From an uncultured Succiniclasticum sp. (GTDB lineage: Bacteria; Bacillota; Negativicutes; Acidaminococcales; Acidaminococcaceae): DNA of 63,412 nucleotides. The stretch is from contig CAJOKZ010000010.1 of NCBI GenBank assembly GCA_905235335.1, positions 1 through 63,412 on the forward strand. Direction: 5' to 3'. Positions within the stretch are counted from its first letter, which is position 1. Each line of letters begins with the position of its first letter. Positions 22,300-54,731 of this stretch are shown here, one piece after another. A model generated the notes under the pieces. It was not told the DNA's origin. It did no database searches and worked only from the letters and a program-made list of their open reading frames with translations. Both the position numbers and the translations under genes were made by a program.

Positions 22300-22830
22300 A
22301 TGACAAAAAAAGCGGCAGTATATACCCGTACAGGCGATAAGGGGACGACCGGCCTGTATACCGGAGAGCGTGTGTCCAAATGCTCGGTCCGGGTTGAATC
22401 GTACGGAAATCTGGATGAAATTACTTCTGCGCTGGGGCTGGCCCGCGCCCTGGTAAAGCGGGATGATGTAAGAGAGGCGATCTTTAATGTGCAGAAGCTG
22501 TTGATGTCCATGATGGCGGATGTGGCCAGCCTGAACCTGCCGAAGCCTTATATTACGGAAGAACACGTCAAGCTCTTTGAAAGCACTATTGACAAGTTTG
22601 ATGCCATGCTGCAGCCCTTGAGTCATTTCATTATTCCCGGGGATACCCCAGGCTCCGCCGCCCTGGATATTGCCCGTACCACGACACGCCGTGCAGAGCG
22701 CCAGTTACTGCGCCTGAATGAAACGGAACCGGTGAATCCGCAGCTTTTGGTCTGTGTAAACCGTCTTTCCGACCTGTGCTTCATTCTGGCACGGGTAGAA
22801 TCGGAAGTGGGTGCGGAAGGGCCGAAATAA
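22300..22830 (+). CDS. Cob(I)yrinic acid a,c-diamide adenosyltransferase, PduO type
   Basis: 176 aa. It adenosylates cobalt of corrinoids using ATP. PduO-type marks: YTRTGDKGTTGLYTGERVSK at the N-terminus (ATP loop), the Arg-rich ARTTTRRAERQLL (~128-140), and VNRLSDLCFILAR at the end. Start ATG with a strong AAAGGAGG site. It opens the cobamide-finishing cluster that runs to 27701. Confidence 0.92.
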   Translation: MTKKAAVYTRTGDKGTTGLYTGERVSKCSVRVESYGNLDEITSALGLARALVKRDDVREAIFNVQKLLMSMMADVASLNLPKPYITEEHVKLFESTIDKFDAMLQPLSHFIIPGDTPGSAALDIARTTTRRAERQLLRLNETEPVNPQLLVCVNRLSDLCFILARVESEVGAEGPK

Positions 22831-22999: not shown

Positions 23000-23136
23000 T
23001 ATAAAATATGAAGAGATGCCCGGCATTTGTCCGGACTGACAGGATTTATCCGACAGGTATTTTCTTACTGCTGTCGGCATGGATCAACTGTTACCGGGGG
23101 AAGAAAACCCCGATTTTTTTCAGGGAGATACCTTAT

Positions 23137-23379
23137 ATGGAAAAACCAAAAATAAAACCGGAAACAAAAAAAGCGTACATTGTCGGAACAAATGTCAAAT
23201 TCAGGAAAAATGCCGGTAAGGAGTATCCGCCGATTGGTTCATTTGAACCGAATGAGCAGGTGAAACTGATGAACACTGCACTGATTGATGGTGTTACCTG
23301 GCATCGGGTGAAGCGCAGCAACGGTCAGTTTGTCTGGGTGATTGATTATTACCTGCATGTACCGTTTCGGCAGTCCTGA
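23137..23379 (+). CDS. Small SH3b-domain protein
   Basis: 80 aa from ATG 23137 (GGGAGA site). After a Lys-rich start it has the bacterial SH3 pattern: GTNVKFRKNAGKEYPPIGSF (the VNVR-like strand), EPNEQVKLMN, and DGVTWHRVKRSNGQFVWVIDYYL. No signal peptide in this form. An in-frame ATG at 23008 would add 43 residues with a weakly hydrophobic stretch, but it would be nearly leaderless given the promoter at 22994-22999. Its role beside cobamide genes is unknown. Confidence 0.65.
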   Translation: MEKPKIKPETKKAYIVGTNVKFRKNAGKEYPPIGSFEPNEQVKLMNTALIDGVTWHRVKRSNGQFVWVIDYYLHVPFRQS

Positions 23380-23512: not shown

Positions 23513-24085
23513 GTGAACGGAGCAGGAAATATCATCTTGGTATTAGGCGGGGCGCGAAGCGGGAAAAGCGAGTTCGCGGAAAAATATGTGCTGCACGCGG
23601 GAGCGGTTTGCGGCTATATTGCTACGGCCGAAATACTGGATGACGAAATGGCGGAACGGGTCCGTCTTCACAGGGAGCGCCGCAGGAAACGGTGGATTAC
23701 TTTTGAAGCCCCGTACCGGGCCGAAGATGTTTTGTCCGAAGCCGGCGAACGTACAGACGCTATCCTGTTTGACGATATCACGATTTACCTGTGCAACATA
23801 TTGTATGGAAAAGATGCTCCGGAAGGGTCGACGGTGGAAAAGGCCTCCTTTGTAAAAGAACGGATCGGGGCGCTGCTGGACGCTGCTGCAAAATGCGGAA
23901 AGACTGTCGTCTTTGTTTCCAACGAAGTGGGCAGCGGGATTGTGCCTGATAATGCCATGGCCCGAGAGTACAGGGATATCTCCGGCTGGGTAAACCAGCA
24001 GGTCGGGGAGGCTGCCGCACAGGTTTTTTATGTAGTGGCCGGGCAGGCTGTTGATATCAAGCGGCTGGCATTTAAATTTGAGTAG
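23513..24085 (+). CDS. cobU: Adenosylcobinamide kinase/guanylyltransferase CobU
   Basis: 190 aa. It phosphorylates adenosylcobinamide and then attaches GMP, activating the aminopropanol side for ribazole transfer. P-loop GGARSGKSEFAEKY (~9-22), then CGYIATAEILDDEMAERVRLHRERR containing the guanylylated-His region, and VSNEVGSGIVPDNAMAREYRD. All are family hallmarks. Start GTG 23513 has GGAGGGC upstream. It is followed 10 bases later by a CobT-like gene. Confidence 0.93.
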   Translation: MNGAGNIILVLGGARSGKSEFAEKYVLHAGAVCGYIATAEILDDEMAERVRLHRERRRKRWITFEAPYRAEDVLSEAGERTDAILFDDITIYLCNILYGKDAPEGSTVEKASFVKERIGALLDAAAKCGKTVVFVSNEVGSGIVPDNAMAREYRDISGWVNQQVGEAAAQVFYVVAGQAVDIKRLAFKFE

Positions 24086-24095
24086 AAGGACGGGC

Positions 24096-25118
24096 ATGTG
24101 TATGCTTGAAGATTTATATATCGAAAAACCGAATCAGAGTATTCGGGAAGCGGTGATGAAGGACTGGGATTCCGTCATGTTCCCGGATGAGGATATGGGG
24201 ATTCTTTCGGAACTGACGGCCGACTACCTGATGATGACCGACGGCCGGGGCATTCGGGGACTGAAACCGGTCATGCTCCTTATGTGCGGAGATCACGGAA
24301 TCTGCAAATACGGTGTCAGTGCCTTTCCCCAGGAAGTGACACTGCAGATGATCAACGGCTACGGAAGAGGTACGGCAGGGGCCAATGTGCTGGCCCGTCA
24401 CGCCGGTGCCGAAATAATCGTGGTGGATGTGGGCACGAACTTTGACCTGCATTCTTTTTCCTATGTGCGGCAATGCAAGGTAGCCTGGGGCACCGAGGAT
24501 TTCACCAGGGGCCCGGCCATGACAGAAGCACAGGCGGTGGCTGCGCTGGAGGCCGGCATGCGCATCGCGGAGGAAGCGATTGACAACGGATGCAACCTGC
24601 TGGAGACCGGGGAGATGGGAATTGCCAATACGACATCTACCGCGGCCATTGCAGCCGGTTTCCTGGATCTGCCTGCAGAACTGACCACCGGCCGGGGCAG
24701 CGGGATCAACGATGAACGGATGAAGATCAAGACCGAAGTTGTCCGCAAGGGTTTGGCGGTCAACAAGCCAAGGCCCGGGGATGGCATGGATGTGCTTTGC
24801 AAGGTGGGCGGCTATGACCATGCCGGGTTGGCAGGCATGATGCTGGCGGGAGCTGCCCGGCATGTTCCCACGATGGTTGACGGGGTGAACGCGACGGCCG
24901 CGGCGCTGATAGCCTACGGTATTAATCCGGAGAGTGCCTCCTATATGCTGTGTTCCCACCTGTCATCCGACCTGAGTGCTAAAAAGATGCTGGAAGTATT
25001 GAAGCTCAAACCAATTGTCCACGCAGGGATGCGGCTGGGGGAAGGAACTGGCGCATCCCTGGCGATCAGCATACTCCGCTCGGCGTTGGACACGTATCGG
25101 AAGCTGACGGGAGAGTAG
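24096..25118 (+). CDS. CobT-like lower-ligand phosphoribosyltransferase, ArsA-like
   Basis: 340 aa. CobT attaches ribose phosphate from NaMN to the lower base. Most CobT blocks are present: CGDHGICKYGVSAFPQEVT, LETGEMGIANTTSTAAI (first catalytic-type Glu), TGRGSGIND, GYDHAGLAGMM, DGVNATAAALIA and RLGEGTGASLA (second Glu). The N-terminal lid block LDxLxKPxGSLxxLE of CobT is degenerate here (WDSVMFPDEDMGILSEL). The second CobT-like protein at 26095 keeps that lid but lacks the GEMG region. Paired, complementary CobT homologues are ArsA/ArsB, which in Sporomusa ovata activate phenol and p-cresol. Start ATG 24096 has AGAAGGA upstream; ATG 24102 is an alternative. Confidence 0.8.
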   Translation: MCMLEDLYIEKPNQSIREAVMKDWDSVMFPDEDMGILSELTADYLMMTDGRGIRGLKPVMLLMCGDHGICKYGVSAFPQEVTLQMINGYGRGTAGANVLARHAGAEIIVVDVGTNFDLHSFSYVRQCKVAWGTEDFTRGPAMTEAQAVAALEAGMRIAEEAIDNGCNLLETGEMGIANTTSTAAIAAGFLDLPAELTTGRGSGINDERMKIKTEVVRKGLAVNKPRPGDGMDVLCKVGGYDHAGLAGMMLAGAARHVPTMVDGVNATAAALIAYGINPESASYMLCSHLSSDLSAKKMLEVLKLKPIVHAGMRLGEGTGASLAISILRSALDTYRKLTGE

Positions 25119-25150
25119 TGTTCCGCGGACAGATAGTTGAGGAGAACAGC

Positions 25151-25999
25151 ATGGCTGAGGACGATTTAAAGACCAAAGGTACTGAAGTGGAAGAGGAAAC
25201 AGGCTTCTGGAACCGGCTGAACATCCGGCTTCCAGAACATTCAACCGGGCCATTCCGTTATCTGCGGGATTTTTTTACCTGTCTGGAGTTTTTAACACGG
25301 ATCCGGGTGACGAAACGGGAACTTTGGTTTCCGGATGATTTTGCCAGGTCCGTTCCGTATTTTCCCATCGTAGGCGGCATCATGGGGCTTCTCATGTGGG
25401 GGGCGGCCCGTGTCGGTATGGAGATGGGATTTTCCGGCAACGTGCTGGGGATATTCCTGGTTCTGGCGGAATTGTTTTTTATCGGTACCCTTATGTATGA
25501 TGGTTTTATGGATACGGCGGACGGGGTGTTCAGCGGAAGGACAAGGGAACGGAAGCTGGAGATCATGCAGGACAGCCATGTGGGAACCAATGCCGTCATC
25601 GGCGCTATCATCCTGATACTGGCCAAGGTGGCGCTGCTGGGTACACTACCGTCGGTATTTTTGGGACCGCTTCTGGTGACGATGTATGTGGTGACCCGGA
25701 CGCTGATGGTAATTTATATCCTGCGGTTTCCCAATGCCCGACCCGGTGGCCTGGGAGAAATGTTTTCAACCGGGGGGAAGCCGGTGTATCTTATATGTGC
25801 TGTCGTGATGTGTGTACTGACGGTCTGTTACCTGGGATCTGTATTTTGTAAGCTGGCCCTTGCCGCTTGTGTACCCTGTCTTGCCATTGCCTTGTATCTG
25901 AAGTGGGGCCTGGGCGGATTGACCGGTGACACCTTCGGCTTCCTGACGGAATGCGGCGATGTGATTATCCTGTTTCTGGCCGGCTGGCTGTTGCATTGA
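25151..25999 (+). CDS. cobS: Adenosylcobinamide-GDP ribazoletransferase CobS
   Basis: 282 aa membrane enzyme that joins the activated corrinoid to the alpha-ribotide. It has six or more hydrophobic segments. CobS marks include FLTRIRV, FPIVGGIMGLLMWG, LYDG-like LMYDGFMDTADGVFSG with its metal-binding acids, RKLEIMQDSHVGTNAVIG and the terminal GGLTGDTFGFLTECGDVIIL. The N-terminus has about 35 extra acidic or charged residues before the family core. Start ATG 25151 has GAGGAG six bases upstream; the GTG at 25118, overlapping the previous stop, is a weaker option. Confidence 0.93.
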   Translation: MAEDDLKTKGTEVEEETGFWNRLNIRLPEHSTGPFRYLRDFFTCLEFLTRIRVTKRELWFPDDFARSVPYFPIVGGIMGLLMWGAARVGMEMGFSGNVLGIFLVLAELFFIGTLMYDGFMDTADGVFSGRTRERKLEIMQDSHVGTNAVIGAIILILAKVALLGTLPSVFLGPLLVTMYVVTRTLMVIYILRFPNARPGGLGEMFSTGGKPVYLICAVVMCVLTVCYLGSVFCKLALAACVPCLAIALYLKWGLGGLTGDTFGFLTECGDVIILFLAGWLLH

Positions 26000-26094
26000 C
26001 ATAATGGCAAGGATGTACACGGTACCGTGCAGCAACAAAGAAATTCCTGTGCATTAAGTAAGCGAATGACAGAACGAAGCGAAGGTATTGAACT

Positions 26095-26958
26095 ATGCAT
26101 ATTGAAGAACTGGCTGTTAATATACAGCCGTTGAGTCAGGAAATTATCTGTGCGGCGCAGCTTCGGTTTGACCAGCTGATCAAACCGGTCGGCTCGCTGG
26201 CGCAGCTGGAAAGCATGACCAGCCGGTACGCCGGTATTATCGGGTCATCGGATAAACAGCTTGTGGTTATCCCGGAAAACCGGCTTCTTCTCGTCTGGGG
26301 CGATGTCAGGCAGTCGGCGAAAATCGAGCGGGCCATGAAATCAGAGAATCTGCTTTCTGTGTTTGCCGAAACAGTCCGGGCGAAAGTCATCCCCCTGTTA
26401 GTCACCGGGGAGAACGTTTACGATCTGCTGGAAGAAGGCGCCATGCTGACCGGGGAATATATCGGGGAGGAAAAGGCAGGGCTGGTCTGTCTGGGGGGTT
26501 ATGAAACAGCCCCGTTGGATTGCTGGCAGCAGTTTGCGGAGGAAGAGGATGGTCTGCTGTTCCTGGAAAAGCTCCGCTGTCCGGTGATTGCCGCCATGAC
26601 CGGTGCGATTCTGCAGGCTGCGGGCATGCGTATTCCCATTATGCTGGACGGGCTCGCAACATGCCTGGCCGCTTTTGCGGCTGCGAAATTCAATCCTCAT
26701 GTGCTTGCGTATTGTTTTGCCGGGGATGAATCCGGCGAAGACGGAAGCGCCGATTTGCTGCGCAGGCTGCAGCTGCAGGCTCCACTTCGGCTTTCCCTGA
26801 AAAGCGGGGAAGGTGTCGGGGCACTGGCCTGTCTCCAACTCTTCGACGCAGGGATCAAGGCTTATACGGAGATGGAAACATTCGAGGAAGCCGGGGTACA
26901 CAGCGAAAAGGAAGATTTCTCCCTGAAGGTTCAGGAAGACAGGAAACTCAAAAAGTAG
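26095..26958 (+). CDS. Shortened CobT homologue, ArsB-like
   Basis: 287 aa. The N-terminus QLRFDQLIKPVGSLAQLESM is a good CobT lid block. The C-terminus SGEGVGALACLQLFDAGIKA plus YTEMETFEEAGV matches the CobT end. In between, the GDHG, GEMGIGNTT and GRG blocks are missing or replaced. The central part keeps only LRCPVIAAMTGAILQAAG and IPIMLDGLATCLAA, recalling the CobT subdomain. It is thus a partial partner that complements the ArsA-like protein, one gene away across cobS. I infer a heteromeric enzyme for phenolic lower ligands. The alternative is a diverged, regulatory or dead CobT. Confidence 0.75.
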   Translation: MHIEELAVNIQPLSQEIICAAQLRFDQLIKPVGSLAQLESMTSRYAGIIGSSDKQLVVIPENRLLLVWGDVRQSAKIERAMKSENLLSVFAETVRAKVIPLLVTGENVYDLLEEGAMLTGEYIGEEKAGLVCLGGYETAPLDCWQQFAEEEDGLLFLEKLRCPVIAAMTGAILQAAGMRIPIMLDGLATCLAAFAAAKFNPHVLAYCFAGDESGEDGSADLLRRLQLQAPLRLSLKSGEGVGALACLQLFDAGIKAYTEMETFEEAGVHSEKEDFSLKVQEDRKLKK

Positions 26959-27095: not shown

Positions 27096-27701
27096 GTGGC
27101 TAAGCTGTATTTGATTCGTCACGGGGAAACAGATTATAATAATGCGATGCGGTTCCAGGGACAGACGGATATACCGCTGAACCAGACCGGAATCAGACAG
27201 GCGGAAAAACTGGCGGAATTCTTTCGAGCGATCCCGCTGGATGCCATTTACACCAGCAGTCTCCAGCGCGCGGCGAAGACGGCAGAGATTATCGCCGGGG
27301 CCAAAGGAATGGAAGTGATTCGGACAGATGCGCTGAAAGAGATGTGCTTCGGAGTCTGGGAAAATATGAACAGTGTTGATATCCAGAAAAAATTCGCTAA
27401 GGAGTGGAAGGAATTTTTTGCCCATCCGGCCAGCACGAGACTGCCGGAAGGAGAAAGCATGGCCGATGTGCAGAAACGCGCGTATCCGGAAGTTAAGCAG
27501 ATCCTGGATGCGTATCCGGAAGGTAATGTGGCCTTTGTGGCCCACGGCGGAGTGATCCGGGTACTGACCTGTACGATGCTGGGGCTGGATCTGGACCGCG
27601 CCTGGCATATCCATGCGGGTAACGCCTCGGTAACCTGTTTTTATTATTGGGGCCGGTCTTATACCCTTGATTTTTCCAATTTGACACATCATTTATCATA
27701 A
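27096..27701 (+). CDS. cobC: Histidine phosphatase family protein, alpha-ribazole phosphatase-like (CobC)
   Basis: 201 aa. The phosphohistidine motif LIRHGETDYNN is at residues 5-15, the YTSSLQRAAKTAEI block carries the second Arg, and the second catalytic His is in VAHGGVIRV (~150). In this setting, removal of the 5'-phosphate of the nucleotide loop precursor is the likely job. Start GTG with AAAGGGG 8 bases upstream. It ends the cobamide cluster. The family also includes phosphoglycerate mutase-like enzymes, so the call depends on context. Confidence 0.8.
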   Translation: MAKLYLIRHGETDYNNAMRFQGQTDIPLNQTGIRQAEKLAEFFRAIPLDAIYTSSLQRAAKTAEIIAGAKGMEVIRTDALKEMCFGVWENMNSVDIQKKFAKEWKEFFAHPASTRLPEGESMADVQKRAYPEVKQILDAYPEGNVAFVAHGGVIRVLTCTMLGLDLDRAWHIHAGNASVTCFYYWGRSYTLDFSNLTHHLS

Positions 27702-54523: not shown

Positions 54524-54538
54524 ATTTCTAATAACAAT

Positions 54539-54708
54539 GATAGAGGAGCGGTAAACAAGAGTACCCTATGGAGAGGCATCTGGGAAGTGGGGGAAAGGGT
54601 GTGCCGCCGAAGGGCCGGTTCCGGCGGGAAACGGCTGCTGGGCCTGAGGTGAACAATTTCAGGACTGTCGTTGCGAATCAGCGTTTGCTGGTGCATCGGA
54701 GAGCTATC
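54539..54708 (+). promoter_or_regulatory. Lysine riboswitch (L box) aptamer
   Basis: The conserved lysine-aptamer blocks appear in order: GATAGAGGAGCGG at the 5' end, AGTA, GGGGGAAAGGGTG, GCCGAAG, GGCTGCTGGGCCTG, AGGACTGTC, GAATCAG and the closing GAGAGCTATC, which pairs with the 5' GATAG. Lysine binding should favour the terminator hairpin just downstream and shut off dapB-asd-dapA, the diaminopimelate/lysine branch. Confidence 0.95.
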
Positions 54709-54731
54709 TCAACTTAAGTAAAATTTGCTGG

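Follow-up and report, generated by a model that had tools for sequence, protein, structure and literature searches.

In the pseudosymmetric ArsAB heterodimer of Sporomusa ovata, ArsA alone is catalytic, as reportedly found by Newmister et al. 2012. Like the pair described here, ArsAB (PDB 4hdk, 4hdm, 4hdn, 4hdr, and 4hds) consists of two CobT homologues with the same fold, in which A keeps both catalytic glutamates while B keeps the lid and the C-terminal tail and has a damaged active site; the TGRG block is missing from S. ovata ArsB. ArsAB activates phenol and p-cresol. The published definition of arsAB is two tandem cobT homologues, each of 300-800 aa (PMC6461909). CobT of S. enterica (SeCobT; PF02277/TIGR03160), the NaMN:5,6-dimethylbenzimidazole phosphoribosyltransferase, is a homodimer with a lid, a tail, and an active site on each subunit. 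In SeCobT, both chains contribute to the base pocket, and E317 acts as the base (PMC9561151). The locus analysed here resembles CobT in fold and in the NaMN-binding and catalytic blocks of its subunit A, and differs in dividing lid, tail, and active site over two genes. It differs from ArsAB in that A lies outside the ArsA clade and lacks Y80/T84, B is about 60 aa shorter with more of the catalytic middle gone, and cobS stands between the two genes.

The window, the whole stretch of 63,412 nucleotides that was analysed, comes from an uncultured Succiniclasticum sp. and contained a cobamide cluster in the order ATR-cobU-A-cobS-B-cobC, all on the + strand (Table 1). The first-pass annotation had described two CobT homologues in one cobamide cluster with cobS between them; both proteins were found to match PF02277, and the gene coordinates placed cobS as described. 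The start of A was an ATG at 24096 with the ribosome site AGAAGGA upstream. The cobS start was an ATG at 25151 preceded by AGGAG, with an alternative GTG start at 25118. A small ORF (23008-23379) directly before cobU has, on visual inspection, the look of an SH3-type domain protein. The window yielded no cobalamin riboswitch, and a lysine riboswitch (RF00168, 93 bits) was located at 54533-54714 (+). No PF02277 genes besides A and B were found in the genome (2.08 Mb, 96% complete). The closest loci to B were in an Acidaminococcaceae MAG (82%), in Succiniclasticum ruminis DSM 9236 and related MAGs (73-76%), and then in Phascolarctobacterium; these identities and the origins of the MAGs point to the rumen as the probable habitat.

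Table 1. Features of the cobamide cluster and of subunits A and B (positions in the window)
Feature	Position	Strand	Length	Remarks
PduO-type cob(I)alamin adenosyltransferase (ATR)	22300..22830	+	176 aa	PF01923 E 2.4e-53; TIGR00636 above cut-off; upstream cluster member
cobU, adenosylcobinamide kinase/guanylyltransferase	23513..24085	+	190 aa	PF02283 E 9e-55; NF004469 above cut-off
Subunit A, putative catalytic CobT/ArsA-like phosphoribosyltransferase	24096..25118	+	340 aa	PF02277; lid and tail degenerate
A, degenerate N-terminal lid segment DSVMFPDEDMGILSELTADYLMM	24168..24236	+		motif table; family conservation 0.52
A, GEMG block	24609..24620	+		Glu is the SeCobT E174 equivalent, codon 24612-24614
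A, GEGTG block	25038..25052	+		Glu is the SeCobT E317 (catalytic base) equivalent, codon 25041-25043
cobS, adenosylcobinamide-GDP ribazoletransferase	25151..25999	+		PF02654 E 7.7e-44
Subunit B, shortened CobT/ArsB-like protein	26095..26958	+	287 aa	PF02277
B, intact lid motif DQLIKPVGSLAQLE (KPVGSLAQLE)	26170..26211	+		near invariant in 38 sequences
B, remnant GEGVG	26806..26820	+		Glu varies among B relatives
B, intact C-terminal tail YTEMETFEEAGVHSE	26863..26907	+		near invariant in the same alignment; conservation 0.84
cobC, alpha-ribazole phosphatase	27096..27701	+	201 aa	TIGR03162 above cut-off

Subunit A matched the Pfam family DBI_PRT (PF02277) over its full length (E 9.9e-108, 360.7 bits, gathering cut-off 22.6) and scored 341.5 bits against the CobT equivalog TIGR03160, above the NCBI cut-off of 319.3. 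Its top PDB sequence match was S. ovata ArsA (4hdk_A, E 3.6e-72), and a fold search with its AlphaFold2 model (pLDDT 92.9) ended in a tie of CobT and ArsA at Z 49. The blocks GDHG (ADHG-type), GPAM, GEMG, TGRG, VGGY, DGV, SHLS, and GEGTG were all kept, and the E174 and E317 equivalents were invariant in the A alignment (A4). The motif table thus agreed with the earlier description of the first homologue as keeping GEMG and GEGTG without the KPxGSLxxLE lid, since the segment reads DSVMFPDEDMGILSEL where CobT has that motif. The C-terminus of A ends ahead of the EMxTFxxAGV tail, a loss that adds to the earlier description. A homodimeric CobT has its own lid and tail on each subunit, and A has neither.

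Subunit B matched PF02277 in two stretches (E 3e-40, 138.9 bits, cut-off 22.6) and scored 123.6 bits against TIGR03160, under the cut-off of 319.3. The ADHG, GEMG, and TGRG blocks were absent. The first-pass annotation had assigned to B a lid and a GEGVG-to-tail end without the central blocks; lid, tail, and the missing blocks stood, while GEGVG was not part of the conserved set. Its Glu position is occupied by R, C, Q, A, S, or T in many B relatives, and because of this variation GEGVG is not evidence of B activity. The AlphaFold2 model of B (pLDDT 90.2, 38 sequences) had ArsB (4hdr_B) as its best fold match (Z 32.5, rmsd 2.8, 265 aligned), with ArsA and CobT trailing by about 1 to 2 Z. The dN/dS of B against congeners was about 0.06-0.22, rough values because dS is near saturation, and by these ratios B is under purifying selection. 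B may have functions beyond lid donation, because 287 residues and a good fold have been retained.

A total of 50 A/B pairs from several families and many genera of Negativicutes were collected through their similarity to the window proteins, a choice that could enrich for lid-bearing Bs, and lid and tail were scored by regular-expression match. Both catalytic glutamates (E174 and E317) were kept in A in 50 of 50 pairs, and the lid and C-terminal tail were kept in B, again in all 50. The lid motif survived in 10 and the tail in 4 of the 50 A proteins, while a full catalytic set was present in B in 3 of the 50; because of common ancestry among the pairs, the counts do not represent independent events. 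Lid loss in A was associated with catalytic loss in B (Fisher p 0.006, 50 pairs, uncorrected for relatedness). Family conservation was reciprocal (lid 0.52, catalytic loops 0.87-0.95, and tail 0.52 in A; lid 0.82, middle 0.43-0.49, and tail 0.84 in B), and canonical Bacillota CobT retained both parts (lid 0.77, catalytic loops 0.70-0.91). As judged from these alignments, the complementary loss is a genuine and widespread pattern, well past chance. Not every A has lost its lid: a few A relatives keep the motif beside a degenerate B partner.

Among the sampled Acidaminococcaceae genomes, clusters of the type found in the window (window-type) repeatedly had the order cobU-A-cobS-B-cobC, so that cobS between A and B is the rule in this family and no peculiarity of a single genome. 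Allowing for contig ends, B was present wherever A was found in these genomes. Pairs of the ArsA lineage had A and B side by side or fused, mostly with no intervening cobS. A and a B-like half were fused in one ORF in 8 of 61 sampled genomes, plus locus L174. The fused loci (L056, L060, L062, L066, L068, L071, L072, L073, and L174) encode 626-685 aa, come from several Negativicutes families, and all belong to the ArsA lineage, none to the window-type lineage. Family f15 seems to use the fused form, because most of its listed matches sit in ORFs of 600-664 aa. Fused ORFs such as L060, L071, and L174 have the same complementary anatomy as the window pair and indicate that the A and B halves belong together, differing in being a single ArsA-lineage polypeptide of about 630-690 aa and not two window-type genes. 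The Acidaminococcaceae genome G026 carried both systems, a window-type locus (L047, G026:C22) and an adjacent ArsAB-type locus (L048, G026:C43) whose B is likewise short (286 aa); because both occur in one genome, the window-type and ArsAB pairs are distinct paralogous lineages. The window-type B profile exceeded 330 bits in family f1 only. Within f1, a B profile match was absent from 8 of 8 sampled genomes of genus g13, and CbiD was absent from both g13 genomes tested. Genome G028 (98% complete) had CbiD, and a PF02277 gene was not found in it. A degenerate CobT homologue without a lid motif was observed at L058 (G043:C46, 1098-2123); no A partner lay in the stretch examined, and an ordinary CobT was also present in G043.

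Phylogenetic analysis by a careful IQ-TREE search on 77 full-length rows placed S. ovata ArsA and all fused A halves in an ArsA clade of 19 rows (support 100/99) and the window-type A proteins in a clade of 20 rows (100/95), the two joined as sisters (100/99). The window A had been expected to fall in the ArsA clade; the tree puts it instead in its own clade beside it. Full-length B proteins formed one group (98/90), which included S. ovata ArsB and the G042 partner of a window-type A. The short window-type Bs, which are long-branched, gappy sequences, were separate from S. ovata ArsB, and their placement relative to ArsB is uncertain because of the long branches. The tree fits a single shared duplication behind both pair types, with the window pair as sister to ArsAB and not a member of it. 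In G042, the lid, tail, and catalytic set are kept in both proteins, which suggests that the complementary losses may have been later and parallel in the two lineages.

Because of the reciprocal conservation and the natural fusions, the best reading of the locus is an obligate heteromer with one A-type site closed by B. Very probably, A and B together form a heteromeric nicotinate-mononucleotide:base phosphoribosyltransferase in which neither subunit suffices, with the B lid over the A site, sister to ArsAB. We infer a physical A:B heteromer and a dead B site and, by homology, a B lid placed over the A active site. In such an enzyme, A would give the Rossmann-type catalytic domain, with NaMN binding and both glutamates (SeCobT E174 and E317 equivalents), and B, its working active site gone, would keep the small domain that the N-terminal lid helices form with the C-terminal tail and that would close the A base pocket across the dimer interface. 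Each subunit of an ordinary CobT serves its neighbour in both roles; here, one of the two symmetric sites would have been given up. The pair would be the only lower-ligand-activating enzyme detected in the genome and would trace back, like its sister Sporomusa ArsAB, to one CobT duplication common to both. The alpha-ribotide would be joined to AdoCbi-GDP by CobS and then dephosphorylated by CobC, and the resulting cobamide would probably be used by the methylmalonyl-CoA mutases of the genome. The ArsA/ArsB-like division of labour in an obligate heteromer that the first-pass annotation had suggested is backed by the constant co-occurrence, the fusions, and the reciprocal conservation. It is very improbable that A works alone as a homodimer beside a decaying, dispensable B, as the shortening of B and the loss of its catalytic blocks might imply: the lid and tail of B are near invariant, its dN/dS is low and its fold confident, and A, without a lid and tail of its own, is accompanied by B in all sampled Acidaminococcaceae that carry A, allowing for contig ends. 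The conserved A-cobS-B gene order would also suit a B whose chief role is regulation or tethering (to membrane CobS, for instance) and not lid donation; this is unlikely, since what B conserves is precisely the lid and tail that A has lost, and since cobS does not usually separate A from B in the ArsA lineage, where the two are neighbours or fused.

The phenolic lower ligand suggested for this obligate heteromer in the first-pass annotation was unsupported as stated, with A outside the ArsA clade, CobT-like residues at SeCobT positions 80 and 84 (F80 and V84 in the window A as in ordinary CobT; Y80 and T84 in the ArsA clade), and a non-discriminating pocket. We know of no requirement for Y80 and T84 with phenolics. 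The SeCobT triple mutant with bound p-cresol is altered at positions 80, 88, and 175 (4kqj title); the F80-M88-M175 pocket was dropped as a phenolic marker because it is widespread in ordinary Bacillota CobTs and thus fails to discriminate. Specificity-determining positions in the window A were 3 ArsA-like, 3 CobT-like, and 2 neither. The genome contained CbiD (de novo corrin ring) and 3 methylmalonyl-CoA mutase matches; BluB was not found in it, no BzaD-type or ThiC-like Bza proteins scored above cut-off, and TIGR04385 gave many weak radical-SAM matches in the genome, none above cut-off. There is slightly less than an even chance that the pair works just as S. ovata ArsAB does, yielding p-cresolyl or phenolyl cobamides. 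The sister position of A to ArsA and the lack of BluB, BzaD, and ThiC-like Bza matches speak for this, as does N266 (beside D263-G264), which occurs in 100% of ArsA and 100% of Acidaminococcaceae A, with Ile in 96% of Bacillota CobT; a review also puts phenolyl cobamides at 20-34% in the bovine rumen, with only S. ovata and V. parvula as known producers (PMC8123684). However, basal window-type clade members have Ile266, Y80/T84 are replaced by F80/V84, the pocket is ordinary for Bacillota CobT, and no ThiH scored above cut-off in the genome, so that there is no obvious endogenous p-cresol source. A generalist or purine/benzimidazole heteromer, with pseudocobalamin (adenine) or cobalamin from salvaged DMB as its natural product, is a serious candidate that likewise stops just short of probable. 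The base loop of the window A (SAFPQEVTLQM) is CobT-like and unlike that of ArsA (SAYPIETTIHM), A scores above the NCBI CobT equivalog cut-off, the pair is the sole base-activating enzyme found in the genome, and ArsAB itself was crystallised with DMB (4hdr title); against this, the nearest relatives of known function activate phenol, and no benzimidazole synthesis was detected in the genome. Phenolics, adenine, and salvaged benzimidazoles are all possible bases.

The division of labour is already known for ArsAB, and what is new is a sister clade whose B is short and whose two genes are separated by cobS. With cobS in between and a B of 287 aa, the window pair lies outside the published arsAB definition, and window-type pairs were probably missed by earlier genome surveys because a filter for tandem genes of 300-800 aa would reject the pair (PMC6461909). 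Acidaminococcus, Phascolarctobacterium, and Succiniclasticum are unnamed in a review listing predicted ArsAB genomes (PMC8123684). Phascolarctobacterium faecium, for which a complete B12 pathway has been predicted and which has been proposed as a corrinoid supplier to Bacteroides (PMC7568257), carries a window-type pair (L108), judged by the same layout. A literature search found no paper naming the P. faecium cobamide and nothing relevant on Succiniclasticum cobamides. It can be put forward tentatively that the window-type pairs constitute, beside their sister ArsAB, a second class of split transferases for base activation that serves as the sole lower-ligand enzyme of the succinate-to-propionate gut and rumen genera Succiniclasticum and Phascolarctobacterium and makes a distinctive cobamide. 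On this view, the two subunits decayed in complementary fashion in both classes in parallel, catalysis always being kept by A and the lid always by B. With its gradation from full pair through damaged B and short B to fusion, the family lends itself to studies of the passage from homodimer to obligate heterodimer. Lower-ligand identity determines which microbes can use a shared cobamide, and, if the proposal is true, the distinctive cobamide of these organisms may be part of the rumen's unassigned phenolyl cobamides.
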